30,706 nt of DNA from Pigoraptor vietnamica (Eukaryota; Opisthokonta; Filasterea), in assembly GCA_943704525.1 (NCBI GenBank), contig CALSCQ010003293.1, positions 1-30,706 of the forward strand, read 5' to 3'. Of the stretch, positions 4,016 through 30,618 are shown piece after piece. The notes under the pieces were generated by a model. That model was not told the DNA's origin. It ran no database searches and saw only the letters and a list, made by a program, of their open reading frames with translations. Made by a program: the position numbers and the translations under genes. Every line of letters starts with the position of its first letter. Position 1 is the stretch's first letter.

Positions 4016-7000
4016 TCAGAAGAGATCTTCCATGAGCACTGTGGCGCCTTCGACGTGCACGAGAGGCACTTCGCCGTCGGGTGACTCGCCTGTGCGCTCA
4101 GCCCATTCCAGCCGCTGGGCTGCATGCAGGGCGAGTGCCTCGTGTGTGTGCTGCTGCGCAATTTCGCACTGCAGAGGTAGAGGGCGGAATGGGATCATCA
4201 GCGATGTGTGTGCATGAACAAGAAAAGCCTCTTGCGTGTGTAACAGTTGAAAAGAGTGTAAACGTCTTAGAGGCGAAGGGGGCATGAGTGGAAAAGGAGA
4301 GTGCAGATTTACAGACTGATGAAAGGTGTGCGCGAGGGAGACATTTCGTTCAATGCCTTTGCATGCACGCACTGCAAACTGCCACGTAGCCTCCTCGAGC
4401 ATGGCAAGTGCGACGGTGAGGTCGGGTGTCGCACGGCCCGCCTGGCTCGCCTTGATCGCGTCCACGTGCCGCTTCTGCGAGGGAGAGGCCCGTCAACTGC
4501 TGCGGTCACGAGCACATGACTCCACTTCTACCGGTGTGTGTAACTCACAATGCAAACGCACGAGGACACTGGGTGCACGTACAGCTAAAGAAGCACTAGA
4601 TATCGAGAGTGACATGCGTAGGGATGTGACAACGTGCGAACGCGTAACACGCACCCAGTCACTGGGCGACTTGGAAAGCAGCGACCTGCACGCGCTCCGG
4701 GGAGCCGGCCCACGTGACTGGTACAACCGTACGATGCGGTGCTCGGCGGCGAGGCGGGCGCGCTCCCTCTGTGCTCGGTGAAGCACGGCGAGGGCGTCAC
4801 GCGCCTTCGCCTGCGACCGCCGCAGAGCCGCCTTGACGTCAGGCTCTCCAACGGGCGTCTGTGGGTGGACGCGACGGCGTGAGTGGCGCTCAAGATGAGG
4901 GGCAAAGTGTCCAAGAATAAGAAAAAATAACCAACAAAGTGTTCAGCTAACAGTCAACTCAGCAACCCACCGCCGACCGCTCCTCCACCGCCGGCTCGGC
5001 CGTCGCGGGGTGCAGCGTGTACTTGCGCGTTGACAGTGTGAACGAGTCCATGTTATCCGGCATCGGCGTCGCGCTCTCCCACGTGACCGTGAACGGATTG
5101 CGGCTGCGTACCGCAAAGGGCGCCACTCTCCGCACGCCGCCCTCAACTGCAACAGGCGCGCGAGTGGGCGCAGAGTCCGCGCGCGAAAACGCAGCAGCAA
5201 CGGCGTCGGCGTAGAAATCCGGAGGCGAAATGGCCTCGACGTCAATCGTGTCGTCCGCGATTGAAGAGTCCGGCGCACTCGGCGCGCCTTCGCCAGCGCC
5301 CGACGCCTGCGTGTTGCTTGCGGGCGCATCTTCCTCGCCTGAAGAGGGCTTCGCGTCCGTCCGATCGCGCACGCGCCGCACCTTTGCGCCATCTTTGGAA
5401 GGTGCCGCTGTCTTCGCCCGCAGAATGGCACTCATGGACCCGACCGAGCGCGACGAAGCGACCTTAACCGTTGGCACGCGCAAGGACGTCTCGTTGTTCT
5501 TGGGCGCAACGTTCTCCTTCTGTGTCCTCTCGCCCGCAGTGCCGTCGTCAGCCTTTGTCTGTTGAGACGCGCTGCTCCGACGGCGCATGGCGCGCGAGGT
5601 GGCGTCTGTGACAGCTGCCTCCTGTGTCTGGGGTAGCAGAAGAATGGCGGCTGCTTCTGCCAGTGCGCTCACGCCCGCGCCGTCCTTGCCCTTGCGTTGG
5701 GCGATCTGCGCAGCAAGCAATTCCGTCACAAAGGCGAAGGGCACAGTGAACATTATACACAGAGCATTGAGAGCTCGGAAACACGCACGCATCTGCTGAG
5801 GCAGCCAATTACAAGAAAGACAAGCGAGTGCATAAGACGTCAATCGCCTCACAGGCGCCGCGCACTCCCTCACCTCTTCCTCCGCCGGCGCGACCCCCAT
5901 CATGGCCAGAAGCCCCGCAGCAGCATCGTCCGTTCCTGTCGCCATACCTTGCGCATCTGACAACGGCGTCGCTCCCAAGCCATCCGCCGCCGCGCTCAGT
6001 GACGCCTCGCCGTCGGCCGCAACGTGCTTGCGCCGTTTGCCGCCCTCGCGCTTCGCAGGTGACGTCGACTCTGGCCGCTGCTCGTCCGCGTCCTCTGCGC
6101 CCTCCACACGCCGCCGCTTGCCCGTTCGCTCGCGGGGCTCCTCGTCATGTGAGCGCTGCCTGTGCGGGTGCAACGAACCCTCCTTCTCGCTGCCCTTGCG
6201 ACCGTCCTCTTTCGACGACCGTTTGCCACCGCCGAGCTCTCGCCTGAGCGACCCCTTCGCCTCGGTGGCGGCCTCCTGCACAGCCCCACTGTCTCCGCTG
6301 ACATCGATCGAAGTGCTCTCCAGTCGACGTCGCCTTGCAACGCGCTCTGTCGCTGGGGCGGTCACGAGCGCGGAGTCCGCTGCCGAGGGAGCGGACTCGC
6401 CCGATTCGGCGGCGAACTCTCTCGGCGCAATGGTGCGCTCCTTTCCCTGCAGCACGGCCACCATTTCTTCCGAGGGGGCGACGTCGAGCGCAGTGCGTCC
6501 GTGGTCGTTTGTGAGGCTCACGTCTGCGCCAAACGACACGAGCACCTTTGCGACGGCCGTGTGGTTGTTGACCGAAGCGTCGTGCAGCGCCGTGTCGCCA
6601 TCGAGTCCGCGCGAGTTTGCGTCGGCGCCGCTGCGGAGGAGGAGCGCGACGAGCATAGCGTGGCCGTGGTTCGCGGCCTCGTGGAGGGGCGTCCACCCTG
6701 CGTTGTCACGTGAGTTGACCTCTGCGCCCTTCTGGATGAGCCCCTGCGCGGCCTTGTAGTCGCCCCGGATGCACGCGCGGTGCAGCGGCGTCTCGCCTGT
6801 CCGGCAGAGGCAATGTTAGCTGGCCGGTACAGGCAGGACGCCACACACCACACAGCTCTCTCACACACGAACGCGCACACACAAGCATATATATCACTAT
6901 CTGCACAACACGCGCAAGACGGCTCCCACCTCGTTCGTTGCGCCCGTGCACCTTGTCGTCGGCCTGTGCCTTGTTACTCGCCTTCTGGTCCATCTTGAGG

Positions 7001-7569
7001 AGCAGTGCCATCTGCTGGCGCTCCGTCAGCGCACGCGGGGCACTGTCCGCCTTTGCGCGCTTTCCGCGCTCCTTGGCTGAAGCGTCCGATGCGGAGAGAT
7101 TGCCATCAGCGACTTTGCACACATACAAGTGCCTATGTACACGCACGTACTCATACATACACAGACACACCACACGGCACATGAAGAGCAACCCACATGG
7201 ACTGTCCTGCTCGTCCCTTGCGAACGCCAGCTTTCGCTTCAGTGACTTCTTCCCCTGCTCTTCGGACGAGTCCATCTGCAACGCAGAAGCAGTGCTGTCA
7301 AGAACAAATGTCGCAAACGGCAGTTAAAGGCTGAGATCGGCGACAGCAGCTGGCAGACGGACCTGTTCGTCGCGCTCACTCGCCGCTTGGGCCTTCTCTG
7401 CGCTATTCGCTTTCGCCGCATCTTCAAACGGCGTTGGCGGAAGATGAGCCTCCGCAGCGCCCTTTCGCTTGTCTACCCCGACACCTGGGGCGTCCGGAGA
7501 CATGAAGGATTGCCGCTTCACGTCGCCTGGCGCGGGTGGGGGCGAGAGGAGGCCCGTTGCGTCCGCCAT
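4016..7569 (-). CDS. ANKRD11/ANKRD12-like ankyrin-repeat protein (8 exons, 835 aa)
   Basis: Minus-strand exons: 7569-7363, 7275-7197, 7112-6930, 6796-5874, 5705-4971, 4858-4733, 4474-4373, 4168-4016. All joins keep phase and give 835 residues. After a short N-terminus comes LTERQQMALLLKMDQ, then KVHGRNERGETPLHRACIRG starting the first of four ankyrin repeats (about residues 153-280). This matches the human ANKRD11/12 block (TERQQLALLMQM...NKRNERGETRLHRAAIRG) segment by segment. The middle is disordered and basic with nuclear-localisation-like KRRRV and KRRK clusters. The C-terminus, CEIAQQHTHEALALHAAQRL then EWAERTG...VPLVHVEGATVL, matches the end of ANKRD11 (RQQHEAAALNAVQRMEW...VPMVDVNDDFVLL). 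In animals these are nuclear co-regulators that recruit histone deacetylases and bind nuclear-receptor co-activators. The protein is far shorter than the 2000-2700 aa animal forms, mainly in the disordered centre. The exon 6 to exon 7 join (258-bp intron) is the least certain. Confidence 0.85.
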
Positions 7570-7962: not shown

Positions 7963-10429
7963 CTATTCTTCGCCAAAGAGCGAGTACATCTCAATCCGCT
8001 CGTACGGCTCGCACGAGGGCGGCGGTGTCACCGTCTCGAATCGAATCAGCGCCGTCAGCGTTGGGTGCTCCCAAAACCCTTCCTTAAGCTTGTGCGCGGG
8101 CAGAGAGCTTCCCGTCGAGTAGCCGAACACGGCACTCAGCGTCATGCCCATCGAGTAGCGCACGGGACGCACCCACGGGCTCGACTCGCGCCCCATCGCC
8201 TCCAAGCGCACGCAGCCGAGCGGCAGTCCCAGGCGCGTCGCGAGGGCCTGTGCGGCATCGAACATCGTGTCCGTGCGGTTCAGCGTGACGCGGAGCGTGT
8301 GGGGCGGTGGGCAGCTCTCCTTCTGCGCCGGCGAACGCTCGAACAGCACCGAGACCTTCTCGAGGAGGCGCGCGAGGTAGACGTCGACAGTCAGCGCGGA
8401 CGACGGAATGCCGAGCACCTCGGGCGCCGGCTGAAAGCAGACAATGTCGCCGTTGATGAGATGGCTCGTCTCGAGCGTGTTCTTGGCGTCGAGGAGGTCG
8501 ACCATGCCCGGCTTGACCTCTTCGAACACGAGAAGGGGGTAGTCCTTCGGAAGGCCCGCCATGCGGCGCATCGCAGGGAACATCTGCTGCAGCGGCATGT
8601 TGCTGTCCGCGAGAATCTGCCCGACGTAGCTCATCTTCTCCGCGATAGGATCGTAGTACTTGAAAAAGATGAGGCACTGCTCCCGCTCCGCGCCCTCAAA
8701 CATGCGCGCGACGCCCGCGAGCGGCCCGTAGCGCGCCTCGTCGTCGTCGGGCGGGAGGTCCTCGAAGCAGGCGTAGTCGCACGTGCCATTTTCGTTCGAT
8801 TCCGGCGGCACGCGGCGCAGGAAGAGCAGCTTGACCTTGAGCTTCTTGCGCTCGACCTCCGTGAAGAGGGAGAGGAGGGGAATGCGCTCGGCCGCCGGCG
8901 TGACGCGCTTGAAGACGCGGACGGTGCGGTTGGTGCGCATGCAGCACGTCCAGTACTGCTGCTCCTCGGGCGGAATGCCGTACCGCCGGTGCGCAATCGC
9001 CTTGAACGGTTCGAGCGTGTCGTCCCAGAGCATCTTCTGTGAGGGCATGTCGCTGAAGTCGAACAGTTCGTAGCCGTGGTGTCCGCCAAAGTCCCCCTCG
9101 GACATAACGGCAAACTGCACGCGCATGCAGTCGAAGCGATCCTCGCCGCCCTGCAGCGCCGTCGGCAGCGTCTCGACGGACGTCTCGATGACGAGCGCGC
9201 CCTTGTCAAGCCATGCCTCGGGGTCGCTGTTGATCGTGTCGAGACTCATGAAGTTGGTGAAGCCCCAGTCGCGTTCGCTCGCGACAAACACGTGCGAAGG
9301 GACGTCGCGCCGCACGCTCGCCGCGGGATTGCGGTGGTTGACGACGCGGAGATGGAAGCGCGCGTCTTGGCGCCATCCCTCGGGCAGCGTGTCGGCGTTC
9401 GCGACATCGAGATACAGCGACAGCATGTTCTCGACGTTGTTGCCTGCGGGAGGGATCGAGCCGACGGTAAGTGCTTTGTAGGACCATTGGACACGCATTC
9501 GCATGCACGCACGCAGACACGCACACGCACGCACACGCACACACACCTCGCGGAAACAGGAAGAGCCGCCACGGGAAGCCGCCGGCTACGACCGAGTGCG
9601 AGTACAGCGACTTAACCGAGAGCTCGCGAAACTTCTCAACGCGCCACGTGAGGTCCGCGCGGCCGCCGAGAGAGTTTCCGTCGAGGAACATGCGGCGCCA
9701 ATCGCCGGAATACATCTCGGGCGAGCAGAGCGGCCACTTGCCCAGCACGAGTCGCTGCCACGGTGCGCGGTCGTGCGCGATGCGACGCCACTGCCGGCAC
9801 ACCTGCGCCGTGCGGAGGAGGTCGCCCGGGCCCAGCAGCCGCATGATGCGCACGATGATTTCCTCGGGTACTCGCGCAAAGTGATTCACGCGGAACACTT
9901 CCTTGTCCTTGTCCGTGTCGAGGTCAATGTCCGGCGTGTTGGCGCGGCTGCTGCACGCACTGTTGCTCCCGCTCAGCCCGCGCGAGAGCATGCGCACGGG
10001 GCGACTTCCGCCGGGGCGCCGGTCGGCGTCCGCGCTCGACTGGCCATAGAGCTCTGTTTTGAGGCGGCGGCGTGCGCGGTCATCGAGGATGCACGACTTG
10101 CCCGACTGCGCGACGCCGGCACTGTGGTGGCCAATCATGTCGGATGTGCGCGAAGAACGGGGCCGCTTCGCCGAACCTCCCATCAACAGCGGACGCAGAG
10201 CGCCTCGGTGCGAATCGAGCGGTCCCTTGCTGCGTGCGTGGCGCAGTGAAGGCAGTGAAGGCAGCGACGGCTGCGATTCTTCTGGTCTGCGCCATAGGGG
10301 GGGCAAGTGATTTGACTCGGCCGTCAGTCGCTGTGCGGTGAGTACAAGCGCGCCTTTTGAGGGCGGAGGGCGGGGCAGCAAAGGGAGGCAGAGGGGTCCG
10401 TGGGACGATGTGGCGCGTGCGTCCGCCAT
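7963..10429 (-). CDS. F-box + MATH + USP7-type HUBL (ICP0-binding) protein lacking the protease domain (2 exons, 787 aa)
   Basis: Exon 1 is 10429-9547, the intron 9546-9444 (GTGTGT donor, CGCAG acceptor, sense strand rich in GT/GC), and exon 2 9443-7963. Residues 1-180 are low-complexity. Residues about 187-232 are an F-box (VPEEIIVRIMRLLGPGDLLR, then TAQVCRQWRRIA). Residues about 258-390 are a MATH/TRAF-like domain of the USP7 type, including the hallmark ERDWGFTNFM. Directly after it begins the USP7 ubiquitin-like region: MRVQFAVMSEGDFGGHHGYE, LIFFKYYDP...VGQI, LVFEEVKPGMVDLL and GDIVCFQ match HUBL1-2, and LRVTLNRTDTMFDAAQALA matches HUBL3. The roughly 350-residue UCH catalytic domain that separates MATH from HUBL in USP7 is absent, as are HUBL4-5 and the C-terminal activating peptide. 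The likely role is an SCF ubiquitin-ligase substrate adaptor using USP7-style binding surfaces. The start ATG has A at -3 and G at +4; a downstream in-frame Met (MGGSAKRPRSS) is an alternative. Confidence 0.87.
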
Positions 10430-12749: not shown

Positions 12750-13350
12750 ATGTCCGCCGAAAAGGGTGGGTGTTGTCTGCGTTTCAACCTGCGCATCTCC
12801 GCTCTGCGTGCTCGAACGACTGCGTAGTTTTGCGTGGACACTGGCACGTCGTCACGCGTTGCGTACTGTGTCTGAATGGCCCGTGGGCGTCGCGCGCAGC
12901 CGTCAGCTACATTGCCGCTTCGCCAGCGGAGTTTGTGCACAACTTTGGCGGGCGGCGTGTAATCGAGAAGGTGCTTATTGCGAACAACGGCATCGCCGCT
13001 GTCAAGTGCATCCGCTCGATCCGTCGCTGGTCGTACGAGGTCTTTGGAAATGAGGTGAGTTACTCCTCTCTGCGTGGTGCGATTTATTGCGATTGCTGCA
13101 TGATAACTGCGAATGCTGTCCCCGTGTTGCTGCGTGCATGAAGGCTGACAGTGCAATTACCGCAACTCGCGCGCTCGTTTTCAACAGCGAGCCATCAAGT
13201 TCACGGTCATGGCGACGCCCGAGGACATTAAGGCCAATGCAGAGTACATCAAGATGGCCGACCAGTACGTGCCCGTCCCCGGCGGCACCAACAATAACAA
13301 CTACGCAAACGTCGACCTCATTGTCGACCTCGCCGAGCGCCTGGGCGTTC

Positions 13351-13396
<46 letters not shown>

Positions 13397-16300
13397 GCGC
13401 GCGCGTGTGCTTGTGTGGTGTGTGTTGTGTGTGCGTCCCTTGCCGTCCTCTTCCGATTGTGAAACTCAACTGCGTGCCGTTTTGTGTGCAGGCCGTGTGG
13501 GCCGGGTGGGGACACGCGAGCGAGAACCCGAAGCTGCCCGACGCCCTCGCCGAGATCAACATTGCCTTCATTGGACCGCCCGGCAAGGCCATGCGCGCAC
13601 TCGGAGACAAGATCTCCTCCTCGATTGTGGCGCAGTCGGCGAACGTCTCGTGCCTGCCGTGGAACGGGTCCGGACTGTCGGTGGATTGCAAGCTGGTCGA
13701 CGGCGCACCCTCCGCGGGCGACACGATCACGGTCCCCGACGACATTTACGCGAAGGGAACTGTGCAAAACTCGCAGGAGGGCCTCAAGGCGGCCGCACAA
13801 ATCGGCTTTCCGGTGATGATCAAAGCGGCGGAGGGCGGCGGCGGCAAGGGCATTCGTCTCGTGAACACCGCGGACGAGTTTCCTGCGCTGTTCCGGCAGG
13901 TGCAAGGTGTGTGTCTCGGCTGTGTATCCTCATCTCGGCACACAGACCTCGTTCGTGAGGCGCATGCCTAATTTTGCCTGTGTCCGTACACGCAGCCGAG
14001 GTACCCGGGTCCCCCATTTTCATCATGAAGCTCGCGAAGAAGGCGCGCCACCTCGAGGTGCAAATTCTTGCCGACGAGTACGGCAATGCAATCTCGCTCT
14101 TTGGCCGCGACTGCTCGGTGCAGCGCCGGCACCAGAAGATTATTGAGGAGGCGCCCGTCACTGTGAGTGTCACCTCTCTGTCCGTGAAATAAGTTGTATT
14201 GGTGTGTGGTACTCTACGTGTGGAATACGTCGTCACCGTTGGTGTGCTCGTGTAACATGTCTGTGGCAGCATCGGTGGCTCACAAATTTTGTCGTCGTTT
14301 CAGATTGCGCCGTCCGACATCTTCGAGGAAATGGAGCGCGCGGCCGTTCGCCTCGCTCGCCTCGTAGGCTACGTGAGCGCGGGCACTGTCGAGTACCTCT
14401 TCAACGAGGAAGAGAACGGCTACTACTTTCTCGAGCTCAACCCGCGCCTTCAGGTCGAACACCCGTGCACCGAGATGGTCGCCGATGTCAACCTTCCCGC
14501 CGCGCAGCTGCAGGTCGCGATGGGCGTCCCTCTCCACCGCATCCGCGACATCCGCTCGCTGTACGGCGAGGACCCACTCGGCGCTACATCCATCGACTTT
14601 ACGGCACCGCGGCGCAGGCCGCAGCCCAAGGGCCACGTGATCGCGTGCCGCATCACTGCCGAGAACCCGGACGAGGGCTTCAAGCCGTCCGGTGGTCTCA
14701 TGCAAGAGCTCAACTTCCGCAGCAGCAAGAACGTGTGGGGATACTTCTCCGTGAGCGCCTCGGGGGGCCTGCACGAGTACGCCGACTCGCAGTTTGGCCA
14801 CGTGTTCTCGTGGGGCGAGAACAGGGAGAACGCCCGCAGGTGCGTTTCGGGTGCTTTTTGATACTCTCCATGCGTCTTCATGCTTGTTGTCGCAAAGCTG
14901 CTCCTCTATTTTTCGTTGCTTTTTCATTGCCTTAAGTTTGTTTTGCGTGCGTGCAGGAACATGGTGGTCGCGCTGAAGGAGATTTCGATCCGCGGCGATT
15001 TCCGCACGACGGTCGAGTACCTCGTCAAGCTGCTCGAGACGTCCGAGTTTGGCAACAACCGCATCGACACCGGGTGGCTCGACGGACTTATCCGCGAGAA
15101 GGTGCGTATTGTTTTTCTTTTGGGGACAAGGTCCTCTGTGTGCTGGTTGTGTCTTGGTCGTTCTGCAGAGTGATCCGTGCGACTGATGTGCCTGCGTCCC
15201 ATGGTACCGTTCAGGTGACCGCGGAGCGTCCGGACACTATGCTTGCGGTGGTGTGCGGCGCCATACACATCGCGGACCTCCAGATTCAGGACCGCTTCCA
15301 GTCGTACTTGCGCTCGCTCGAGCGCGGCCAGGTGCTCAGCCGCGACTTCCTCAAGAACGGCGCCGTCGTCGAGCTGATCTACGGTGCGTGCTAGCAGTGT
15401 GCTTGTGCGCTCAAGCGTATCACTCTTTGAAGATGTGGTTTGCACAAGTATGCTCCTTCTCTTATGCGATTGCATTTTTTCTGTCGCAGGCAACTCGAAG
15501 TACGTCGTTGAGACGACGCGCAGTGGACCGAACGGCTTCATCCTCACGATGAACGGGTCGTTTGTGGAGGTCGACATGCACAAGCTCAGCGACGGCGGAA
15601 CCCTCGTCATGTTTGGCGGGCAGTCGCACGTGACGTACATGAAGGAAGAGGTCGACCGGTGGGTTGTGTTGATATTATATATCAATTCGGCTGGCGAAGT
15701 CGAGTCGGTGCGATCCCATTCGTCTGTATGCTGACGAATGTCTGCGCTATTATGCAGCTATCGCGTGACGCTCGACGGCAAGACGTGCGTCTTCCACAAG
15801 GAGAATGACCCGACGAAGCTGCGCACGAGCTCCCCCGGCAAGCTGATGCGCTATCTGGTCGGCGAGGGCGAGCACGTGAGCGCCGGCAAGCCCTTTGCCG
15901 AGATTGAGGTGATGAAGATGATCATGCCCCTCGTGTCCGGCGACAGCGGCGTCCTTCACCAGACGAAGCAGCAGGGTTCCATCCTCGAGACCGGGGACGT
16001 CGTCGCGACGCTCGTCCTCGACGACCCTTCGCGCGTGCAGAGGGTCGACGTATACGGCAGCCCCTTCCCGGACTTTCGCGACACGCAGCTCGTGGGTGCG
16101 CGCGCCCACCAGGTGTTCCGCGCGGCGAAGGCGGCGCTCGAGAACATTATGGCCGGGTACGAGCTCCCCGACCTCATCCGCAATGACAAGCTGCGCGACT
16201 GGATTGCGCAGTTTGTGTCGACGCTGCAGGACCCCCGCCTGCCCATGCTCGAGCTCCAGGAAGTGCTCGCGGCGCTGGCGTCGCGACTGCCCGTGTCGCT

Positions 16301-19300
16301 GCTCACGCGGATCAATGCGCTCCTGGCGCACTACGGCAACAGCATCAATTCGATGTTCTGCACGTTCCCGACGCAGCAGATTGCGGGGTCGGTCGACCAG
16401 TACGCCGCGTCGCTGACCTCGGAGCAGGACCGCACGCAGTTTTTCATGGTCGTCGAGCCCGTCATCACGCTCATCCAGCGGTACGTGTTTGCGCCTCTTT
16501 TTTTTTTTTTTTTTTTCTTTTTCCGTCGCGGCTTTCGGCATTACGCCTCCCTCTTGATTGAATGCAGCTGTCGTGCCTCCTGTTCTCACCGCTCCACGCG
16601 TCGCTGTCTCGCTTGCAGGTACCGCAGCGGCATCCGTGGCCACATGAAGACGGTGCTTACGATGCTCATTCGTCAGTACCTCGACGTCGAGAAGCTGTTT
16701 GGCGGGGAGAAGAGCTACGAGGAGGTCATCTACTCGCTCCGCGAGCAGCACCGCGAGCGCCTCTCGCGCGTACTCCAGATCATCTCGTCGCACGCCCGCG
16801 TCCATCTCAAGAACCAGCTGGTGCTCGTCCTGCTTGACTACCTCTGCGGCAAGGACGGCTCTCTCACGACACCCGAGGACAAGCAGACGCTCGGCGAGCT
16901 CGCGGCGCTGAGCAGCAACTCTACGTCGAAGGTGTCGCTGCGCGCGCGTCAGATTCTCATCCAGTCTCACCTGCCGTCGTTCAACCGGCGGCGTCTGGAC
17001 ATTGAGGTGTTCCTGCAGTCGGCGGTGGACTCGATCGGCGAGAAGTGCGCCGAGAAGCTCCAGTCGCTCGTGGACTCGTCGTCGACCATCTTTGACGTCC
17101 TCATGACGTTTTTCTATCACAAGAACATTGCGATTCAGCTCGCGGCGCTCGAGGTGTATGTGCGGCGCGCGTACGTGGCCTATCAGATGGAGGGCATTCG
17201 GCACGACTGGCTGCCCGGCGGCAAGATTGTGATTGAGTGGCAGTTCATTCTGCCCAAGTCGCACCCGTCGCTGCAGCACGCACGCGCGCGCGCGGGGGAC
17301 ATTGGGTCACCGCGTCGCACGTCGGGGCCGATCAAGAAGGTGCGCTGTCGTCCTATGTGTTCCTCTGTGTGTGGTGCTGTAACGCGTGTGTGTGTGCGCG
17401 CGCGTGTGTGTGTGTGCGCAACCATTTCGCGCATTGGTGCGTGTCTAACGCACGCCCGCACCCTTCACTTCCCACAGGTGATGAGCCTTGGCGAGAACCT
17501 TGGGCTCCTCGACTCGGCCGATCGCAGCATTTGCCGGCTGGGCATCATGGCCGCCTTCGACAGCCTCGACGAGTTCAGCCGTCACTTCAATGACGTCATG
17601 GACCGCTTCCCGCGCCGCATGGCCCCCATCTCGGAGGTCGAGTCTCCGCCGGACGACAGCGACATATGGGGCGAGCCCATCCACTGCCTCAACGTCGCGC
17701 TCAAGTCGTCTGCGCCCATGGACGACGCCGACCCCGACGACAAGATACTCGAGCTGCTCGGCGCGTTTGTCAACTCACAGCGGCGCACGCTCCACGACCG
17801 CGACATTCGGCGCGTGACGTTCGTCATCCAGCGCCCCGAGAACTTCCCCAAGTACTTTACGTTCCGCGAGCGCCTCGAGTTCCAGGAGGACTCGATCTAC
17901 CGCCACATTGAGCCTGCGCTGGCGTTCCTCCTGGAGATCTTCCGCATGAGCAACTACCGCATCCAGTTTGTACCCACGGCGAACCACAAGCTGCACCTCT
18001 ACTACGGCGAGGGCAAGCCGCTCGACGGCCAGCCCGTGACGGACCGCCGCTTCTTTGCGCGGTCGATCATCCGCCACGCCGATCTCATCTCGAGCAACAC
18101 GAGCCTCGAGTACTTCTTTTCGGAGGGCGAGCGCATGCTGATCGAGGCGCTCGACGAGTTTGAGGTCGCGCTGGCCGACCCGCGCTTTGGGCCCACAGAC
18201 TGCAACCACATCTTCATGAACTTTGCGCCGACGGTCCTCGTCGACCCGCTCGTGCTGCGCGAGAACCTGCGCGCGCTCATTATTCGCCACGGCAAGCGGC
18301 TGTGGAAGCTTCGCGTGACGCAGGCGGAGATTCGCATCCAGGCTCGCCTTACCGCGACGACGCCGCCGATTCCCATCCGCTTTTTCGTGAAGAACCAGAC
18401 GGGCTTCCTTCTGATGATCCACGTGTACCGCGAGGTGGAGGACCCCCTCACGGGCAAGACGATCTTCGAGACCTTTGTCGGAAGCGGCTCGCCGGGTCCC
18501 CTCCACGGGCACGACGTCAGCGCGCCCTACATGGTCAAGGACCACCTGCAGCTCAAGGTGGGGGTCGCGCGGATGCGCGAGTGTGCAATTTTGAGGGGAC
18601 CGGCTGTGCTTTGCCCCTCTGCTCCATGTCGCCGCTGTTGTCTTCGATGCCGTCTAACGCGCCTTGTGCCTCTGTCCCCGCAGCGCTACTCTGCGCAGTC
18701 GCAGGGCACCACGTACGCCTACGATTTTCCCGAGCTCTTCCGCGAGGCCGTGCACCTTGCGTGGGCGCGGCACACCGGCGGCGCGGGCGAGGCGGCATCG
18801 GGCGTCCCGGAGACGCTGATGAACTGCGCCGAACTGGTGCTCGACGAGAAAGAGAACCTTGTGCCCGTGCGTATCAAGGGCATTCGCTGTGTGCATCCCG
18901 TTTGGTTGTGCTGCGTGCGCTGCGCACATGATGCGTATGGCGACGATGTGTGCGTGCCTGCATGTGTGCTGGTCCTTGTGCTGATTCCCGTCGCTCTCGT
19001 GGCGCGCGCAGGTCCAGCGGCAACCCGGCTGCAACTCGAGCGGCATAGTCGCGTGGAAGATGGAGCTCTTCACCCCGGAGGCGCCGCAGGGCCGCGAGAT
19101 TGTTGTCATCGTCAACGACATCACTCACGTGATCGGCTCGTTTGGGCCGGCGGAAGACATTGTGTTCAAGAAGGCATCGGAGTACGCGCGCCGCCTCGGC
19201 ATTCCCAGGATATACGTCTCGGCCAACTCTGGCGCGCGGATCGGTCTCGCCGACGAGGTGCGTTGGTCACATGCCATGTGTTGTGCGTGAAGCGGGCTTG

Positions 19301-21500
19301 CGTGTCGTGTGGATATTTCATACCTGTGTGCGCACGTGTGCTGATGCGGCTGTTGCGCGCAGGTCAAGAAGCTGTTCCGCGTGGCGTGGGTGAGCGAGGA
19401 CCAGCCCCAGAAGGGCTTCAAGTACCTCTACGTAACACCGGACGACTACAAGACGCTCAACGCCACCAACTCGATCAAGGCCGAGCTCGTCGAGGACGGC
19501 GGCGAGACGCGTTACAAGATCAACGACATTATTGGCGCGCTGGACGGCCTCGGCGTCGAGAACTTGCGGTGCGTTACGTCACTGTGCAAGTGTTGTGCCT
19601 TTTTTCGCGTTTTCTTTGTTTTGCTTTTTCTGTTTGCACTGTCTTGCCTGCGACGATGCTTTGTGTGTGTGTTGCAGCTCGAACGGGCATGTAAGCGGAG
19701 TACATGCTTGACAATTCTCTTTTTTGCGTGTACAGTGGCTCTGGAATGATCGCCGGCGAGACTTCTCTCGCTTACGAAGAGACGTTCACGATCACGCTGG
19801 TCACTTGCCGCTCCGTGGGCATTGGCGCCTACCTCGTGCGGCTGGGCCAGCGCGTCATCCAGGTCGAGGGAACGCACATTATCCTCACGGGCGCGAACGC
19901 TCTCAACAAGGTGTGTGCACGAGCACTCGTCGTCTGTTCGTCATCCGTCGCATTTGAGCCTGTGGAGGCTGACGCTTTGCTTTTGTTCATCCTCTTTGTG
20001 GCGCAGGTGCTCGGCCGCGAGGTGTACACGTCGAACGCGCAGCTGGGCGGCACGCAGATCATGTACAACAACGGCGTGTCGCACCTCGCCGTCGGCAACG
20101 ACTTTGACGGCGTCGCCGCGATCGTCCACTGGCTGTCGTACGTGCCACGCGTGCGTGATGGCCCCCTCCCTGTCATCAAGCCCATCGATCCCATCGACCG
20201 CGAGATTGACTTTGTGCCGACGGAGACGCCCTATGACCCGCGCTGGATGCTCGCCGGGCGCGCGGACCCCTCGAACCCCAAGAAGTGGCTGTCTGGCTTC
20301 TTTGACCGGGACTCGTTCCAGGAGACGCTTGGCGGGTGGGCGCAGACGGTCGTGTGCGGTCGCGCGCGGCTGGGCGGCATCCCCATGGCGGTGATTGCGG
20401 TGGAGACGCGCACGGTGGAGGTCATTGTGCCTGCGGACCCCGCGAACAGCGACTCTGAGGTGCAGCTGTTGCAGCAGGCGGGGCAAGTGTGGTTCCCGAA
20501 CTCGGCGTTCAAGACGGCGCAGGCCATCCGCGATTTTGACCGCGAGCAGCTGCCGCTCCTCGTGTTTGCCAACTGGCGCGGGTTCAGCGGCGGCATGCGC
20601 GACATGTACGAGGAGATTCTCAAGTTTGGCGCGTACATCGTCGACGCACTGCGCGCGTATCGCCAGCCCGTGTTTATCTACATTCCGCCCTATGGCGAGC
20701 TGCGCGGCGGCGCGTGGGTCGTCGTCGATCCCACGATCAATCCTTCGATGATGGAGATGTACGCGGACGAGCTGTCTCGCGGCGGCGTGCTCGAGCCCGC
20801 GGGGACCGTGTCGATCAAGTTTCGCAAGCGGGACATTCTCAAGGCGATTGGCCGCATGGACGCACTTGCCATGGCCCTCGCGACGGAGCTCGCGCGTCCG
20901 GACATTGACGAGGCCACCGCGCGCGACCTGCGCCGGCGGCTGAAGCAGCGGCAGGACGACCTCCTGCCGGTGTACACGCAGGTGGCCAACACGTTTGCCG
21001 ACCTGCACGACACGGCGGGCCGCATGAAGGCGAAAGGCTGCGTGAGCGAGGTGCTCCAGTGGAAGACGGCACGGCAGTTCTTCTACTGGCGGCTGCGTCG
21101 GCGTCTGGCCGAGGAGGAAGTGCGCCGGCGCATTGGTGAGGCTAGCGGCGAGCTGTCGCACGGGCAGGTGACGTCGATGCTGCGCCGGTGGCTGGTCGAG
21201 TCGCGCGGCGTCGTTGCCCTCAGCTACTGGGAGGACAACAAGGTCATGGCCGAGTGGTTCGAGCAGCAGCGCCCGGCGATTGCGCAGAACATTGCGACGA
21301 TTCGGCAGGCGGCGCTTATCGAGCGCGTGTCCGGACTAGTCAAGCACGACGCCGACGCCGCGATGCAGTCGGTGCTGGCGCTCCTCGAGCACCTCTCGCC
21401 CGCGCAGCGCGAGGACCTCGCGAGCATACTGGCAGCAGGGCCTCCCGATCTTCCTTCGCCCACGTCCGCCGACTCTGCGCGGGACGTCGCGCACAACTGA
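12750..21500 (+). CDS. ACC1: Acetyl-CoA carboxylase, eukaryotic multidomain type (17 exons, 2254 aa)
   Basis: Exons: 12750-12765, 12900-13054, 13188-13352, 13492-13906, 13996-14162, 14304-14839, 14957-15101, 15215-15383, 15490-15658, 15758-16480, 16619-17339, 17478-18557, 18684-18866, 19012-19257, 19363-19568, 19736-19910, 20007-21500. All phases match. The enzyme makes malonyl-CoA from acetyl-CoA, bicarbonate and ATP, the committed step of fatty-acid synthesis. Visible parts: biotin carboxylase with [15 protein letters not shown]-type start, [20 protein letters not shown], glycine-rich loop GGGGKG (about 227-232) and [12 protein letters not shown]; biotin carrier motif EVMKM with the biotinyl lysine near 699; a long central region; and carboxyltransferase with [25 protein letters not shown] and [11 protein letters not shown]. 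Sequence is closer to animal ACC than to yeast over most blocks. The N-terminus is very short: SPAEFV begins 13 residues after the start, so the animal AMPK-target segment is absent. Lacking a transit peptide, it should be cytosolic. Confidence 0.97.
16498..16516 (+). repeat. Poly-T tract inside ACC intron 10
   Basis: Nineteen T in a row, then C and further T, about 15 bp after the donor GTACGT of the 138-bp intron 16481-16618. It is a pyrimidine tract far from the acceptor, so it is more likely a slippage-prone homopolymer than the main polypyrimidine tract. Confidence 0.9.
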
Positions 21501-21893: not shown

Positions 21894-24800
21894 TCACGCC
21901 GAGGACTCGTACAAATTGGCGTCGGCAAGGAGGCGATCGCTGTCGCCAGTTGTGCACACGACCTCCAAGCTGGGGGCGGGAGGGTCGTTATCGTAGCCCC
22001 CTTCCTCGCCGTCGACGTGCGCGGCGTGCAGTAGCTTGGACTTCTCACCATCGACCGCAGTGGAATCAAAGTTGTCGTACAGCGAAGTCACAGAAGAAGC
22101 TGCGACGGAGGGCACCGTCGGGTTTGCGTACGTGTTGGTGCGATCGCGGACGGTGAGCGATTTTTCTTGCGACGTCGGGACCATCTCGTGTTCCTGCGAC
22201 AGCATCGTAGTCGTTGCAGTTCCGATCGCTTCCCGAATTTCCGCAAACGACGGTCGCGCCTTGGCCTCGAACGCCCAGCACTGCCGCAAGACATCGTACA
22301 TGGCGTCAGAGCACGAGGGCGGCTGCGCGAGGCGGTCACCGCGACGAATGAGGGCGCGCAGCTCTGCTATCGGGATTCCCGCCCACGGAACAGCGCCGAA
22401 GGAGAAAAGCTCCCACAGTGTCACGCCGTAGCCCCAAACGTCGGATTGCTGCACGGCATTGATTCACAAGGCACAGCTTGGTCAGCCGAGTGAAGTGAGT
22501 TCAATAGTAAGACGTGCTGGCAGTAGTGGGCTTTCTGGAGCTAAACGGCCGAGTACAGCGCGCACGAACAGACAGCTCACACACGTCTCAAAGAGTGCCC
22601 AACCTCCGTAAAGCGCCGCTCGTTAAGCGCTTCCGGGGCCATCCATTTCACCGGCATCTTCTCTTTCTGAGTGAGACGAAAGTAGTTGCGCTCGGCCGAG
22701 ACACTCTTGGACATGCCGAAATCGGCGACCTGTTAACGGATTGTCGATCAGTTAATAGTCTGTCCGGAGCGTCGGGACGGGGTGAAAGTCAAAACAGTTG
22801 GCATTCGCTTGTAGCGTCGGTCCATTCAGAGCAAACAAGCAGCACTTGCAACAAGCTGGGCCGCCGCGCTTTGCCATCGCGGAACACTAAGGCTGAAAAC
22901 CGGCAATCAGGAGTGTGCCAACACGTACACCCAGCCATTCGGATACACGCGCGCGGCAATATTCCGCTTCCCACCTTCATGATGTACTCCCCGAAGGCGT
23001 CTTGCCCCACCTGCGATAGAGAAGAACCGGCCATTGGCGCACATGCCGGACATGAGCCTGGACGCTACTGGTGACGGACTCCAGACACGAGCGTTGGAAC
23101 AAAAGCGGCCACAAAGGCTCACACTGATGATGGGGCAGTCGAGAGTAACAGTTGGCTCAGCGCTGTCATACCATAACATTCCTGGCCGCAAGATCGCGGT
23201 GCCTGTCATGGTAGAAGCGGGCGATAAGGTGAGTAAACAAAACAAAATCAGAACGCGCAGGATAAAAGCCTGAGAGGCTCGCAGAGGCACACGGGCACCC
23301 ACACAATGTGCATGGCGGCGAGGTACTCCATGCCGCTGCAGATCTGCTGCGCGAAGCGTTCGAGCATCACGCGCGTTGGTGCCGCCTTCCTCATGCGATC
23401 GGGGATGCCGCGCACAAACGACAGCGCGCTGCCGTGGGGGACGAGTTCCAGGATAATGAGAACCGGCTCCACGGTAGTGCACACGCCCACAAGGCCCACG
23501 ACGTTCACGTGAGGTGCGAGAGAGTGCATTATCTCCGCCTCTTTCACAAATTCCACGCGCTGTTCAAAGGACGAGCCCTCCTGCGAGCGATAATCAACAG
23601 GAAATTAAACGCCGGCGAAATGAGCAACGAATGAGCCTTGATCACGACAGGCTTATTGATCTGATACACAGCATCCGAAATCCCAACAGCCGCTTCGACA
23701 CCTTCAACCTAAGCCCTCTTCCCTCCCTCCTTTCCCACCTTGAGCGTCTTGGCGGCGCACAGACGCGGCCGGCTGTCCGCAGTAACGCGCGCCTTCCTGA
23801 CGACGCCGAACTCTCCCTCTCCGAGTTTCTCCTGGAGTTCGACGGCTTCGCGATCCAGTTCCGTCGGACGGCCGCCACTTTCCGTTCGCAGGGCGTGCCA
23901 ATGCTCCTCCAAGAATCGCAAGTGCGCCTCGTGGCTCCTTTTCCGCCGCATCGCCGCTGTTTGCCACCGCAGCAGCGCAACGAGCGCCACCAGCCCCACC
24001 ACGCACGGGACAACGACCGCCGGGACGATCTTTGCCGTGTCATCCGTCGGCGACACGCAATGCCACACGCTTCTCGCATCGCCCGCCGAAATGGGGCTGA
24101 GCTCGAGCACGCGGCCACCCCCGCACGGCAGCACCGTCACAGGGATCGTGAGGTTGGACAGCACCGCCCGCCGGCCCACGTCCGTGTCCTTTTCCCCGTA
24201 GAGCAGCGGATTCGACGATTCCACACGCAAAGCATACACGCCCGGCGGGGCATTCAGCCGCAGCGCGCCAAACGTGACCTCCGGACTCGACCCGAAGCTC
24301 TTCTCAGTGTCTCCCTCAATTTTTGCCCCCGTTGTGCCTTCCACGGCGAGCGAGATCGTCAGCGGCGCGTCCCGTGGGAGGGAGATGGGCAACCCCAGCG
24401 CATCAAGCGTCGTGAGCGAGAACGCGGGAAGCAGTGCCGAGCTTTCCGAAAAGAATCCCGCCGGCAGCGCGAGCGTCCGGACTCCCGTGGTCAGGAGGCC
24501 GCCGCGGACCCAGCCCGGCGGGAGTTCCGCAGCGGACATGTGCCCGGGGTTGCGCAGGAAAGTCACATTACCGAGAACGACAAAGGGGCTCGCAAGGTAC
24601 ACGCCAGGCCCGAGGACTGCGTTGGTGCGGTTGATGCGGACGCCCTCCGATCGAATCGCCGCAAGGGCGTCCGCGTACACGGCACCGCCCGTGCTGCCGT
24701 AGCAGAGGTCCAGCGACAGACCCTTCAACATCAAGCGCGCGTTGGCGCCCACGTGCACGCACCCGCCCTTCCCCGAGGCAGTGCTGTTGTACACAAACAC

Positions 24801-27800
24801 GTTGCGCACGGTGCCGTCAGAGCCGCTTCCCACGTACAGCGCGCCGCCGTCCAGCGCGACCACATTGCGCAACACGGCATTCTCCACAGCAACCGACGCA
24901 CCGCCAATCGCCGCAATGAAGCCCCCGCCGACCAGCGGAGCCGTGACTGTGTCGACGAGCAGGTCCCTCGCGTCGATGACGGCCCCCGATGACGCCAGAA
25001 ACGCGCCCCCTTTGCCGCCCTCGCCATCTCCGTGCACAGAGACGCCAACGACAGACACATTTTCGAGTCGTGCGCGACAGGGGCCGTCCAGGATGGCAAA
25101 ACCCGCCGACTCCACAGCGCCCAGGCCATCAAACACGCACCCCGTGAGCGAAACGCTTCCCCCCGTACAGGCCACGGCGCCGCCACTCGAGAGCGTCCGC
25201 GCACTGGACACAGTGGACGACGAGAGGGCGACCGTCCCAAAGCCCGCCAGAGACGCAATTGCCCCGCTCAACCGGCTCACGACGTCTCTCAAGGTACTGC
25301 CGTCGACAACAGCACTTGCCCGCCCGGACACCGCGAGGGCGTTCCCCGACACGTCAGTCACAGTGGAAGAGGAGAGCTCGAAGGACGACGACTCATCCAT
25401 GGCCGCGAGTGCCCCACTGAGCGCCTCCACGTGCGCTAAGCGAAGACGCATGGCCCGTACAGTGGCGCGTCCCATGCCCGCGACAAGGCCGCCGCCTCCC
25501 CCCGACGCGGTCAGATTACTGAAGTCGCCGTCAACGACGTGCAGAACGGACCCGTCTCTGAGCGACGCAAAGGCGCCGTTCTGAGCAAACAGTCCGCGCG
25601 CTTTCACGCCCTCCACACGCATCGTCGCCCTGTCGGACAGAGATAGCGCACCACCGAAAACAACCCTGACGTCGATCGCGGAGACGTTCACGAAATGTAC
25701 CGACGACGTGTCGCCGGCTGCAGCCACGCCGCCCGCGCCCGCCGACATGTTGCTGAAGGCGCAACGGACAACCGAGACGCTCGCCTCCTCGGACGAGAAG
25801 AGAACGCCGCCGGCAGCCGTTGCCACTGCCGAGGTCAAGTGGGCGTCGCTGAGCGTGACAGAGGCTGCCCCGTGCGCCCTGACCAAAGCCCCCTTTGCGG
25901 CAGAGAGCGACGAGAACGACGACCCAGAGATGGAGAGAGTGCTCGCGTCCTCAGCCCAGAAGAGCGTTGCGCGGGCGTCGCTCACGTTGCACGACACAAA
26001 CTGGAAATTGCAGCCGTCGACGAGCCGCGCGAGTGCCGCGCCCACCGTTCCCGACAGCCCGACAAACGAAGAGTCGGCCACCGTCGTCTGCATGGACCCA
26101 AAGAATACCCCACCGTCAGCAGCTGACACTCCGTGCGCGTGAACCCGCGTCAAGAACGCCACGGGCGGAGTGAACGTTGCCACAGATGCAACGCTCGCCG
26201 TTAGGCCGCGGTGTGCGACAAGGCCCCCCGTGCGTTCCGCATGCACGCCCTCGAAAGTAGAGTCGGTGATGTTGAGCTCGTGCCGCCCACCCTCGATCAA
26301 GACGCCGCCCCCGTCGCCGTCAACTGAAACATTAAAGAAGCGCGATCTCGTCACAACCAACGCCGACGGGACATCCGCGGGAGGCAGGTAATGCCGGAAC
26401 ACCTCGAGGTGCACCGGCTGTGGGTCTGGAATCGCCAAAGGGAGCGAGACGAACGCCACGCCGCCGCTCGTCGCGTGTACGTCGTGCACCACAGTGTCGG
26501 TGATTTCGACCGCCACGCGCTCGACAAGCGGGGTCACGTACACAATCCCGCCAAACGCGGCCCTCACGCCGACGACGAGACAGCCGACGATCGACACTGG
26601 GCCCGGGATTTGCGCCACGACCGCGACGAGGCCGCCGTTGCCCTCGAGCGCGTCCGTTGTGGCAATGTCCAAGAGGGTGCTGTTCACGAGAGACAGCGCG
26701 CTCAGACTCGAAACGTACGCAACGCCGCCCTTCCCCGCCCTCACGCCGAGTATGGTCGTGTTCTCAATCGAAGCCTGTCCCTGGCTGAGGTAGACGACCC
26801 CGCCTTCGCTGCGGTCCGCATCACGGCCCACAGGCACCACGTCCGAGATGAACGACGACCGCACGACCAAGTGCCCGCCAGTCTGTACGAGCGCAAAGCC
26901 GCCGTTGCCTTCCACGCGCGCGTGCGAGAACACGACATCCTCCGCCGTCACAACGCAGTACGGCGACACAAGCGCAAACGCCGCTGAGCCGTAAACGTCG
27001 AAGTCCGTCGCACTGCAGCGCTGAAAGTGGACCGCGGCATCGTAGCACGCGACCAAGCCCCCGTCCTGCGTCGTGCCCCTGAGGGTGTCGCCGCCCAAGT
27101 CGTCAGGGTTGCCCGGTATGCCCGCGACTGTCACGGACGCAAACGTCGAGTCCGTCACCATCAGCGACGCATATTCGGCGTAGAACACGCCACCGGAGAG
27201 CGCCGTGGTGACGCCGGCGATCGTGCACCGCTCGAGCGTGACCATGCCAAAGCTCGCCCACACGACGGCACCCTGCACTGCGGGGTCGGCCCCAACGTAT
27301 TGGAGGGGATTAAAAACGTCGCGAACAGTCGTGTCCATCAACTGCAGATGCCCGTTCCGCCACACCTCAAAGAGGCGGAAGTGATGCACGAGCGTCACGT
27401 GCTGGACCACAAGAATGGCGGCGCGATCTGTCGTAACGTCCACGGCGCCGACTTTGAACAGGCGCGGGCGCATGCCCGGACTGCTTGACTCGCGGCAGCC
27501 GTAGATGGACATCCCCGCGAGCTCAAGCGCACCCTCGCGGAGTACGAGGTGGTCGGGCTCCTCGTCGTCCATGCAGGCCGTGCGAACGACCACTGCGCCC
27601 TCGACGCGAATCCGAATTGAGGGCCAGAGCGAGACGGAACCGCTCCCGAAGCGAAGCTCGGCCTCTCCATCCCCCACGAGCACCACCGTTGCCGTGGCCG
27701 ACGTCGCATTTTCAAATTCCGCGCCGAGCATCATGTTCGCAGCGACATCCTGAATCACCGCAACGAGGGACGTCTGATTGGCACTTTGAAGATCAACGAC

Positions 27801-27908
27801 AAACTCGCGATCGGCTGCCCTGGACTGGGCACCAACTGATGCGAGGGCGATGAGGACTGCGAGGGCAAACACGAGCGGGCCTGCGCCGGTCCCGACATTG
27901 CGCGGCAT
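21894..27908 (-). CDS. Receptor tyrosine kinase with a large beta-helix (Pmp-like) ectodomain (6 exons, 1731 aa)
   Basis: Exons: 27908-23739, 23580-23303, 23202-23172, 23010-22975, 22729-22604, 22448-21894; phases match throughout. Start is the first ATG, giving a signal peptide (MPRNVGTGAGPLVFALAVLI...). Residues about 30-1290 carry about 25 repeats of 25-30 residues with GGxxxV/GGA motifs, as in polymorphic outer-membrane (Pmp) and other right-handed beta-helix proteins. A single membrane span (about 1293-1315, VVVPCVVGLVALVALL) is followed by basic residues. The kinase domain has glycine loop GEGEFGVV (1363-1370), lysine 1387 (AAKTLK), glutamate 1404 of helix C, HRDLAARN with catalytic Asp 1486, DFG Asp 1508, activation-loop Tyr 1521 and PVKWMAPEAL. 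HRDLAARN plus PVKW mark a true tyrosine kinase, and all catalytic residues are present. The tail (about 1625-1731) has four tyrosines, two in YxN context. It should sit in the plasma membrane; the ligand is unknown. Confidence 0.94.
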
Positions 27909-28232
27909 TGCGTCTGCAACACTGCCGAAGCGCGAATGGGGCCGTCTGTCGTGAGCACACAATATAAGCGTGAGTGATGGAGGGTGTTACAGTGTGGGCC
28001 CACAGCGGACTCAGGCCCATACTGAAAGACAGTGCAGTGCACGCCCTCGGCGACACCCGGCTTATCCAATCCAACAAATGCAGGTCACGTGATGTTGCCT
28101 TCGCGCGGGAATTCCGTCGTTCAAAAAACACTCTGGCGCATTTTTTCTACTGCGTGCACCCGCTTCTCTTTTCTAGCCGCAGCGCACCGCTCACACAAAA
28201 CATGCGCAACCGCGCGTCGCACTGAGCGTCCC
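27909..28232. promoter_or_regulatory. Divergent promoter of the receptor kinase and the Sfi1-repeat gene
   Basis: 324 bp separate the two start codons. TTATATT on the minus strand (27970-27964), about 56 bp before the kinase ATG, is TATA-like. TCACGTGA (28085-28092) is a full E-box palindrome, and TTCGCGCGGGAA (28100-28111), read on the other strand as TTCCCGCGCGAA, fits an E2F site. The last two are adjacent and 122-148 bp before the Sfi1-type gene start, consistent with cell-cycle expression of a centriole protein. Confidence 0.45.
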
Positions 28233-30618
28233 ATGGACTGGCAACGGGGGCGCGGGCGCGGGCGTCCCGCACCCTCCGCACTCGCCGTTACTGCGCATGG
28301 CATCCCCGCCGCCCGCGACACCCGCACGGGAGTGGACGCAGCGCAAGCACCAGGCGAGAATGTGTGGGACACTGCCTCTCTGCGGACGCGCGTCACGGGT
28401 GCGCTCGCACGAGGGCGTCCGTCCGCTTCTGCCTCGCGAATACCGCGTCCCGCAGCGCCGCACACACCGGGGAGAGCGATTGGGAGAGCGATTGCTGCAG
28501 CGACACGTGCGACAGCGACACGTGCGGCAGAGGGTGCGTCCCAGCCACAAGCAGGGCAACACGCGCATCACGCACTGGCCGCGCTCACGCCTCTCGAGCG
28601 GCACATTGCGGCGCGTGTGGTGCGCAAGTGGAAAGCGCGCGCGCGTCTCCGATTGGCTGCGATTAAGGCGAGGCGTCTGCATGAGGCCTCCCTGGCGCGG
28701 CGCGTGCTCACCGCGTGGCGCGATGCCGTGTTTGTGGGGCGCGCCATGTGGCGGTTGAAGCTTCGCGCCGATTACCACAGCAAATTCCGCCTCTATAGGA
28801 TGGCATTTGCGGCGTGGGTTGCGTTTGTCGCCGCGCGTCGTCGAAAGCGTGCGGCGGTCGCAGCGGCAGACGCCCTCCGCCGGTCCTCGCTGCTGCGCGC
28901 GCACTTGGGTGCGTGGCGTCGCTACGGCGCACAACAGGAGCTCAGTCGGCGCATGGACGTCTCGGCGTACGCCTTCCGTGCGCGCCGCCTTGCCTCGCTG
29001 GCCGTCGGAGCCATTCGCGCGCGGGTTGCCGAGATGCACGCACACGACGGGCGGCACTCGCAATACCTCCTGCGCGTGGCCTTTGTCGGGTGGCGGAGAC
29101 GTGCGCTCTTGGGTCGCGCTGTGCTTGCGCTCCGTGCGCGGGCGGTAAAGACCCGACGCGACGCACGCGCTGCCGCAATGCTCAGGGCGTGGGCGCTCTT
29201 CGCCGCGGGGAAGCAGAAGTACCGTGCATCGGCACGCGTGGCGGACGAGCGGGCGACAGCGCTGGCGGCGAGGCACACATTGCAGCGCATGCGTGCGGTT
29301 GTCGCGCGTCGCCGTTTTGCGCGCGATCGCGACAATGCCGTGATTGACATGGGTCGCGTGGCCGTGATGCGGCGTGCGTTCGGGCGCATGCTCTTTTATG
29401 CGCGCCGTCGGAGGGCGCTGAGGGAGACTGCCGTGCGTGCGGACAGCTTGCGTCATGCGCACGCACTGCGGCGCGTACTGGGCGCATTTCGAGCGTACGT
29501 GGGGCAGCGGCGGGAGAAGGCAGCAATGCGCGCGCGCGCAATGGCCTTTCGCAGGGCCGCACTGTTGCGCACCGCACTTGCGAGGTGGTCCGTCGCACAC
29601 GATGCGGCGGAAGAGCGCCGCCTGGGGCCTCTCACGCAAGTCGCGCGGGGCTTTCGCACGCACGCGCTGCTGCGGACGATTGTGCGCGCATGGCACAGCG
29701 CGGCTGTACGGAGTGTTCGACGTCGTGCGCTTGCTGCCGTGGCCGCACGACACGACGCGATGGCGTCACAGCGGCGCCACTTGCGTGCGTGGAGCGCAGT
29801 CGCTTCTCGCAAGCGCGCGGCGGAGAGCTCGGCTGTGGCTGTGGTACAAGGGCGGCGAAGGGCTTTGCTCAGCCGCGCCATTGGAAAGTGGAAGGCGGCG
29901 TTCCGCTCGAGAGCGAATGCGCGACTCGCAGAAAGGACGGTGCGTTGTGTTGTCATGTGCTGCGGTTTGCAGAAGTGCGCTTGTGCGTTTGTGTACGGCG
30001 TCTCTCACACCTGCTCCATTCTTTTCCAGGCCATTCTGCACGCGGACGCAGTGCTTGTGAAGCGCGCCCTACGGCGGTGGCGCAGCGCGGTGGAAGAAGG
30101 GCACAGGCGCGTGCAGATGGCGTGCGCGGCGGTGCTGTGGCGCAAGCACTCGCTCGCGCGGCGCGCTTTTCGGCGGTGGCAAGCGCACGCCGAGGCACTG
30201 CGGCTGGAGAAGCTACAAGTGGCGGCCGCGCTCGCACACGCCGATGTGGTGCGGGTGCGCGCGTGCTGGACTGCATGGCGCGCGGTGGGTATTGTTACTG
30301 TCATGTTAATCCTTGCTCGCGTTGCGGTAGGAGAGAGCAGGGAAGGCGGAGATTGGCGTGTGCTGTGTTACGAGTGCGGCTGACGTGAGTCCTGCAAGGA
30401 GAGAGCAGGGAAGGCGAAAGAGCGATGGGTGTGTGCCGCGTTACGAGTGCGGCTGACGTGAGTTCTGCGCGCACCGATTGCAGTTTGTGCACCGGCGATG
30501 GCTCAAGCGGCGCGCTCTGGTTCGCGCGGACGAGTGGGCGCGGCGGTCGTTGCTGCGGAGGGCGCTCTTTCAGTGGATTGTGCGTGTTGCGGCGTGTGCT
30601 CGCGTTTGGCAATGCTGA
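28233..30618 (+). CDS. Sfi1-repeat (centrin-binding) protein (3 exons, 698 aa)
   Basis: Exons 28233-29939, 30030-30284 and 30484-30618 join in phase, with donors GTGCGT and GTGGGT and acceptors TTCCAG and TTGCAG. After about 115 residues of Ala/Arg/Pro-rich sequence come about 15-16 helical repeats spaced roughly 33-37 residues apart, each with the pattern L-L-x-x-A-F-x-x-W, for example LARRVLTAWRDAV, LYRMAFAAWVAFV, LLRVAFVGWRRRA, LLRTALARWSVAH, LVKRALRRWRSAV, LARRAFRRWQAHA and LLRRALFQWIVRV. This is the Sfi1 repeat, in which each helix binds one centrin and the whole forms a long filament at centrioles, basal bodies or spindle pole bodies. Start at 28233 (CCCATGG) is chosen over an in-frame upstream ATG at 28032, because the upstream part overlaps the promoter motifs and looks non-coding. 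Very basic composition supports a filament with acidic centrin. The orthologue is not certain; other Sfi1-repeat proteins exist. Confidence 0.83.
30329..30469 (+). repeat. Tandem duplication inside the last intron of the Sfi1-type gene
   Basis: Two adjacent copies (30329-30396 and 30397-30469) share the blocks AGGAGAGAGCAGGGAAGGCG and TTACGAGTGCGGCTGACGTG, followed by AGTC/TCTGC; the second copy is 5 bp longer in the middle. The unit fills most of the 199-bp intron 30285-30483. Each copy contains a GTGAGT donor-like hexamer. Confidence 0.9.

Follow-up and report, generated by a model that had tools for sequence, protein, structure and literature searches.

The locus described here raises the question of what becomes of the substrate-reading modules of the deubiquitinase USP7 when they stand on a chain of their own, behind an F-box. 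By removing ubiquitin, USP7 controls a large set of proteins, p53 and MDM2 among them. The window, a stretch of 30,706 nucleotides from a genome assembly of Pigoraptor vietnamica, carries on its minus strand a gene (10429-7963) that reading-frame analysis divides into two exons with 787 codons and a stop. The species, a filasterean and so a single-celled relative of animals, is the organism named Opistho-1 in sequence collections and has been grown on the bodonid Parabodo caudatus (PMC7147346, PMC9492541). The gene and its domains are laid out as follows.

9547..10429, minus strand: exon 1, ATG at 10429, residues 1-294 plus one base; N-terminal low-complexity region, F-box, and first part of the MATH domain
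9743..9877, minus strand: F-box, residues 185-229 (PF12937, 49 bits, E 5e-13; PF00646, 33 bits)
9175..9652, minus strand: MATH/TRAF-like domain of USP7 type, interrupted by the intron, residues 260-384 (PF22486 MATH_2, 77 bits, E 2e-21)
9444..9546, minus strand: intron of 103 nt, GT...AG, phase 1, inside the MATH domain
7963..9443, minus strand: exon 2, with the remaining MATH, HUBL1-3, the C-terminus, and the stop
8134..8955, minus strand: HUBL region, residues 458-731 (PF12436 USP7_ICP0_bdg, 122 bits, E 4e-35)

Removal of the intron rejoins LFPRG with NNV, and the fungal USP7 P0002 reads LFPRGNNV at the same point of the alignment. Six GT/AG combinations with an open frame were listed, and the pair chosen is the one that matches the P0002 residues exactly. 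As this only intron measures 103 nt and lies inside MATH, a hidden protease exon has no room, as the first-pass annotation had argued, and is ruled out. A downstream exon carrying HUBL4-5 was likewise rejected: about 390 nt separate the stop from the ATG at 7569, which is probably the start of the next gene on the minus strand (other ATGs lie between), and the genome has no PF14533 match.

The F-box, MATH, and HUBL matches all exceed the curated Pfam cut-offs, and the genome profile search placed the F-box at 9743-9877 too. Pfam gave no match in the 787 residues to a UCH catalytic domain with its Cys/His/Asp triad, to HUBL4-5 (PF14533, USP7_C2), or to BTB. About 16 residues link MATH to HUBL1, and the chain ends just beyond HUBL3. 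Among solved structures, 28 sequences were matched: 22 are USP7, in MATH or HUBL2-3 stretches, four are FBXW7 in its F-box (26 bits), and the other two are weak matches to ubiquitin entries over residues 435-530. The best whole-chain match is USP7, with E down to 2e-25. The order of F-box, MATH, and HUBL with no UCH, proposed in the first-pass annotation, is thus borne out by Pfam, and the resemblance of MATH and HUBL to USP7 by Pfam, solved structures, and alignment together. Its assignment of HUBL1-3 holds too. The PF12436 match covers residues 458-731, and HUBL1 comes from alignment, not from Pfam; it starts near residue 401 (about 9126), mostly ahead of the Pfam match, scores about 10 bits by itself against human USP7 HUBL1, and also aligns with two other USP7s. 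Judged by its sequence, the product is USP7 minus the protease, minus the protease activator, and plus an F-box. It is called USP7-like and not classed as a USP7 deubiquitinase because the catalytic domain was looked for and is absent. HUBL4-5 has been reported as needed for USP7 catalysis (PMC7419626), so its loss fits the loss of the protease.

This architecture suggests that the product is probably a substrate adaptor for SCF, derived from a USP7 scaffold, which would send clients of the former deubiquitinase to ubiquitylation. An F-box would have been joined ahead of a USP7-type MATH, the UCH domain between MATH and HUBL1 would have been excised cleanly, and HUBL4-5, which activates the protease, would have been lost too. 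MATH would grip client peptides of the P/A-x-x-S kind, while HUBL1-3 could offer a further docking surface of separate specificity. The F-box would dock the protein on Skp1, and the clients would be ubiquitylated. In this scheme we infer that the F-box binds Skp1, and we also infer the clients, the sequence of evolutionary steps, and the sign of the effect. The adaptor layout itself, an F-box followed downstream by a substrate-reading MATH with kept peptide contacts, agrees with what had been proposed.

In the alignment, residues R294, D353, and W354 of MATH correspond to R104, D164, and W165 of human USP7, and all three are kept. R104 is a client contact in the USP7 MATH domain. D164 and W165 have been described as essential contacts for P/A/ExxS clients (PMC7419626, PMC12047801), and client reading by MATH is likely kept here. 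The motif read by the MATH domain of USP7 has been given as [AP][GS]xS (PMC13376213). A different picture emerges for HUBL2, where E759, D762, and D764 of USP7 each proved indispensable in pull-downs for binding the ICP0 peptide (PMC4457826). The equivalents in the window protein are H622, N625, and D627, with one of the three essential acids kept; the same positions read E/N/D in the Corallochytrium USP7 (P0001) and E/D/D in P0002. With this pocket, ICP0, GMPS, and UHRF1 are doubtful as HUBL2 partners, and the earlier suggestion that partners of this type are recruited is not supported. Yet the double mutation D762R/D764R lowered partner binding in cells and did not abolish it (PMC4457826), which implies that other contacts exist.

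The USP7 origin of the MATH-HUBL part rests on the HUBL region, the MATH-HUBL order, and the MATH match together. The window MATH finds its best BLAST match in the Corallochytrium USP7 (83.6 bits; 39% identity over 111 aa), followed by the fungal USP7 (65.1) and by a second MATH of the same assembly, on contig C1116 (62.8). The latter is nearly as close as the fungal USP7, so that HUBL and domain order carry the assignment as much as MATH does. The C1116 MATH scores 41-43 bits with the two USP7s and is thus nearer to the window MATH, with which it shares the motif ERDWGFTNF.

Several known systems are comparable. With USP7/HAUSP, which has the relatives Ubp15 in fungi and UBP12/13 in plants, the window protein shares MATH and HUBL1-3, homologous in sequence and order, and the equivalents of D164/W165 and R104; it differs by the missing UCH and HUBL4-5, the F-box in front, and a HUBL2 acidic pocket that is mostly replaced. 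SCF adaptors of the FBXW7 type carry their reader domains downstream of the F-box. The window protein resembles them in having its F-box ahead of a client-reading module, and in the sequence match to the FBXW7 F-box, but its reader is MATH-HUBL as in USP7 instead of WD40 or LRR. In plants, the MATH proteins MUSE13/14 act with the F-box ligase SCF-CPR1 as separate proteins, whereas here MATH and F-box share one chain with HUBL. MATH also serves as the client reader of an E3 adaptor in the Cul3 adaptors of the SPOP/MATH-BTB group; the window protein has an F-box (Skp1 route) in place of BTB (Cul3 route), and has HUBL1-3 in addition. SPOP and HAUSP were reported to compete for a single region of LZTS2 (PMC12848046), a precedent for MATH serving either sign of ubiquitin control.

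The first-pass annotation had proposed that the protein competes with a true USP7, and this depends on a catalytic USP7 being present. The assembly comprises 32.5 Mb in 1395 contigs. Across all of it, PF12436 matches the window only, so no second HUBL was found. PF14533 has no match in the genome; the search control was likewise silent, and the model matches the Corallochytrium USP7 at 114 bits. The genome profile search gave 56 UCH matches on 26 contigs. Thirty fetched loci and the additional locus L046 were compared, and 26 of the 56 matches were covered only by the two whole-genome USP7 probes. Each probe, P0001 and P0002, returned nine matches (16 candidates scored for each), seven of them UCH stretches, and neither found HUBL outside the window in the whole genome. 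With both, the best-scoring UCH match lies on contig C764, at 34% and 33% identity and 55 and 61 bits, whereas the UCH domains of P0001 and P0002 match each other at 51% identity over 336 aa and 352 bits. The best single UCH stretch in the fetched loci (the 30 and L046) reached 85 bits.

Shorter and weaker UCH stretches score higher in identity to USP7, with C129 at 44% over 56 aa (E 7e-4), C568 at 40%, and C292 at 37%, and the Cys box of C764 is 89% identical to USP7 over 18 residues; such short stretches of high identity are taken as signs of general USP likeness. Against solved structures, C129 ranks USP35/36 (92-89 bits) above USP7 (64) among the best 60 of 103 matches, and C764 ranks Ubp8 and USP47 (about 59) above USP7 (53) among the best 60 of 83, by a small margin of about 7 bits. 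C764 was rejected as the missing USP7 on account of its 33-34% identity, the lack of a HUBL match there, and this ranking. Our guess is that it is a USP48; no DUSP domain was present in the two frames scanned. In all, neither the family models nor the probing with two USP7s recognised a catalytic USP7 in the assembly, and competition with a true USP7 is therefore not supported.

How far this absence can be trusted depends on the completeness of the assembly, which is fair. Chaperonin probes matched 11 contigs (9 genes are expected, and some of these contigs may carry other proteins of the family), proteasome probes 11 (14 genes expected), and cullin probes 2. A catalytic USP7 could have been overlooked; the chance of this is limited, though appreciable. 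In the alternative that follows, the window gene would be a paralogue beside a normal USP7 and an antagonist competing for shared clients. The kept client pocket of MATH would suit this, as would an assembly in 1395 contigs that is not fully complete, but neither a USP7-type UCH, nor a second HUBL, nor HUBL4-5 emerged anywhere in the assembly, and both C129 and C764 rank other USPs above USP7. This alternative is considered unlikely. The adaptor reading may instead be extended, tentatively, to the Pigoraptor-lineage USP7 itself having turned into a ligase adaptor, with no catalytic USP7 left and the ubiquitin sign over USP7-type clients inverted; this stronger form is plausible, though we would not rely on it. 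The F-box-MATH-HUBL protein may stand in USP7's place.

An adaptor of the SCF type needs partners, and Skp1 matches were found on two contigs, cullin loci on C100 and C1316, and at least 64 F-box matches in the genome (150 of 182 candidates scored). Together these predicted genes show an SCF system. An opisthokont with many F-box proteins would be expected to have more cullins, and the two loci caution of an assembly gap or of the reach of the search. MATH loci are also two by PF00917, the window and C1116, and PF22486 hits the same two contigs. On C1116 (15893-19219, L032), BTB and BACK lie in one frame and MATH in the following frame on the same strand, apparently a BTB-BACK-MATH adaptor if the frames form one gene. 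The order in SPOP is the reverse of this. If the C1116 frames are indeed one gene, both MATH genes found in the assembly carry modules of E3 adaptors, an F-box in one and apparently BTB-BACK in the other.

A second alternative holds that no ubiquitylation takes place: MATH and HUBL would shelter clients as a scaffold, or the F-box would titrate Skp1, as a dominant negative, or work outside SCF. Some F-box proteins do act outside SCF complexes, and here only HUBL1-3 remains, with an altered HUBL2 pocket. Against this, the F-box is well over its cut-off and the readers follow it on the chain, a layout shared with SCF adaptors like FBXW7, so that the scaffold role is rather improbable and the SCF adaptor is preferred.

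Transcript evidence comes from two proteins in the EukProt 'Opistho-1' set, P0003 (407 aa) and P0004 (359 aa), the only ones found, which match the halves of the gene at 99% and show 99 and 100% identity to the query in the segments aligned by BLASTP. P0004 matches 10291-9218 without a break (99.4%), through the F-box exon, the intron, and the start of exon 2, which it enters out of frame. P0003 matches 9504-8302 (99.75%), begins inside the intron, and differs in its last residues. The intron is kept in both, and the protein searches returned no product of splicing, which weighs against a simple adaptor reading. As P0004 reaches across the intron from one exon to the other, the two exons are one transcription unit. 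It had been considered earlier that the exons might belong to different genes or that a UCH exon might be spliced in; P0004 joins them in one transcript, although an unspliced one, and no UCH exon lies between them in it. Copies with the intron still in place could come from unspliced RNA, from carry-over of DNA, or from regulated retention, and splicing presumably takes place in the mature mRNA.

The domain-bearing part of the coding sequence has a GC3 of 0.84-0.88, compared with 0.75 in residues 1-175, and the GC content of the intron is flat over the three positions (0.59-0.63). Both halves of MATH are conserved across the splice in the alignment with other USP7s. The intron starts with a GT repeat, and so does an intron of the neighbouring acetyl-CoA carboxylase gene, located by eye between LGVQ and AVWAGWG. 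The weakest alternative is that the locus is not a working gene, its transcripts being fragments with a retained intron and a frameshift in MATH (P0004 out of frame, P0003 starting within the intron), or that it is an assembly chimera, and this is highly improbable given the stop-free frame of 787 codons with its high GC3, the two conserved MATH halves, the similar intron next door, and a transcriptome of another source that shares the exon-intron-exon junction.

Adaptors with an F-box and adaptors with MATH are both known. The combination of F-box, MATH, and HUBL lacking UCH appears to be new, as far as the searches reach. Protein searches found the F-box-MATH-HUBL order in no other species within a limited reach: in two of them scoring was confined to 8000 or 7999 candidates, those with the most words in common, and one of the two could return only proteins of about 335-1060 aa. 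A MATH-only protein search of 27 candidates gave no match and missed even P0001, a sign of weak reach. With candidate sets and sizes so limited, the absence in other species is weak evidence. A viral origin was rejected, as none of the 58 pattern matches in viral contigs is a relative. Among the titles listed by literature searches (20 of 28 and 12 of 527 papers in two of them), none describes an F-box/MATH/USP7 protein, and in a term search of a review on ubiquitin evolution (PMC11354881), USP7 was absent and MATH occurred only in an author's name. If the adaptor reading is true, the readers of USP7 would be modules that can be taken apart, with an outcome that a domain swap can invert, and the protein would be a natural counterpart of engineered targeted degradation. 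The locus makes testable how a relative of animals lives without a catalytic USP7, if it does so, and which HUBL functions need the protease.

The window holds several other frames. Downstream of the F-box gene and on the same strand, 4959-6815 encodes an ankyrin-repeat protein with a long low-complexity tail. On the plus strand, the frame 960-1742 shows by eye an F-box-like stretch, LSLEVLDPIDLACLAASC. The region 13000-21500 (plus strand) resembles a multidomain acetyl-CoA carboxylase gene; several introns interrupt it, one of them the intron opening with a long GT repeat, and its C-terminal frame (19695-21500) matches 'Acetyl-CoA carboxylase 2' best, at 744 bits, with 'Acetyl-CoA carboxylase-like protein' entries at 599 bits. 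On the minus strand, 21894-27986 has the appearance of a receptor kinase whose ectodomain is unusual. Its frame of 1425 aa (23709-27986) contains a repetitive ectodomain, a membrane segment, and the kinase start, all recognised by eye, and 21894-22463 encodes a C-lobe of the tyrosine-kinase type (PF07714). A frame of 785 codons at 28026-30382 (plus strand), with no Pfam match, is rich in Arg and Ala and by eye has recurring Trp residues.
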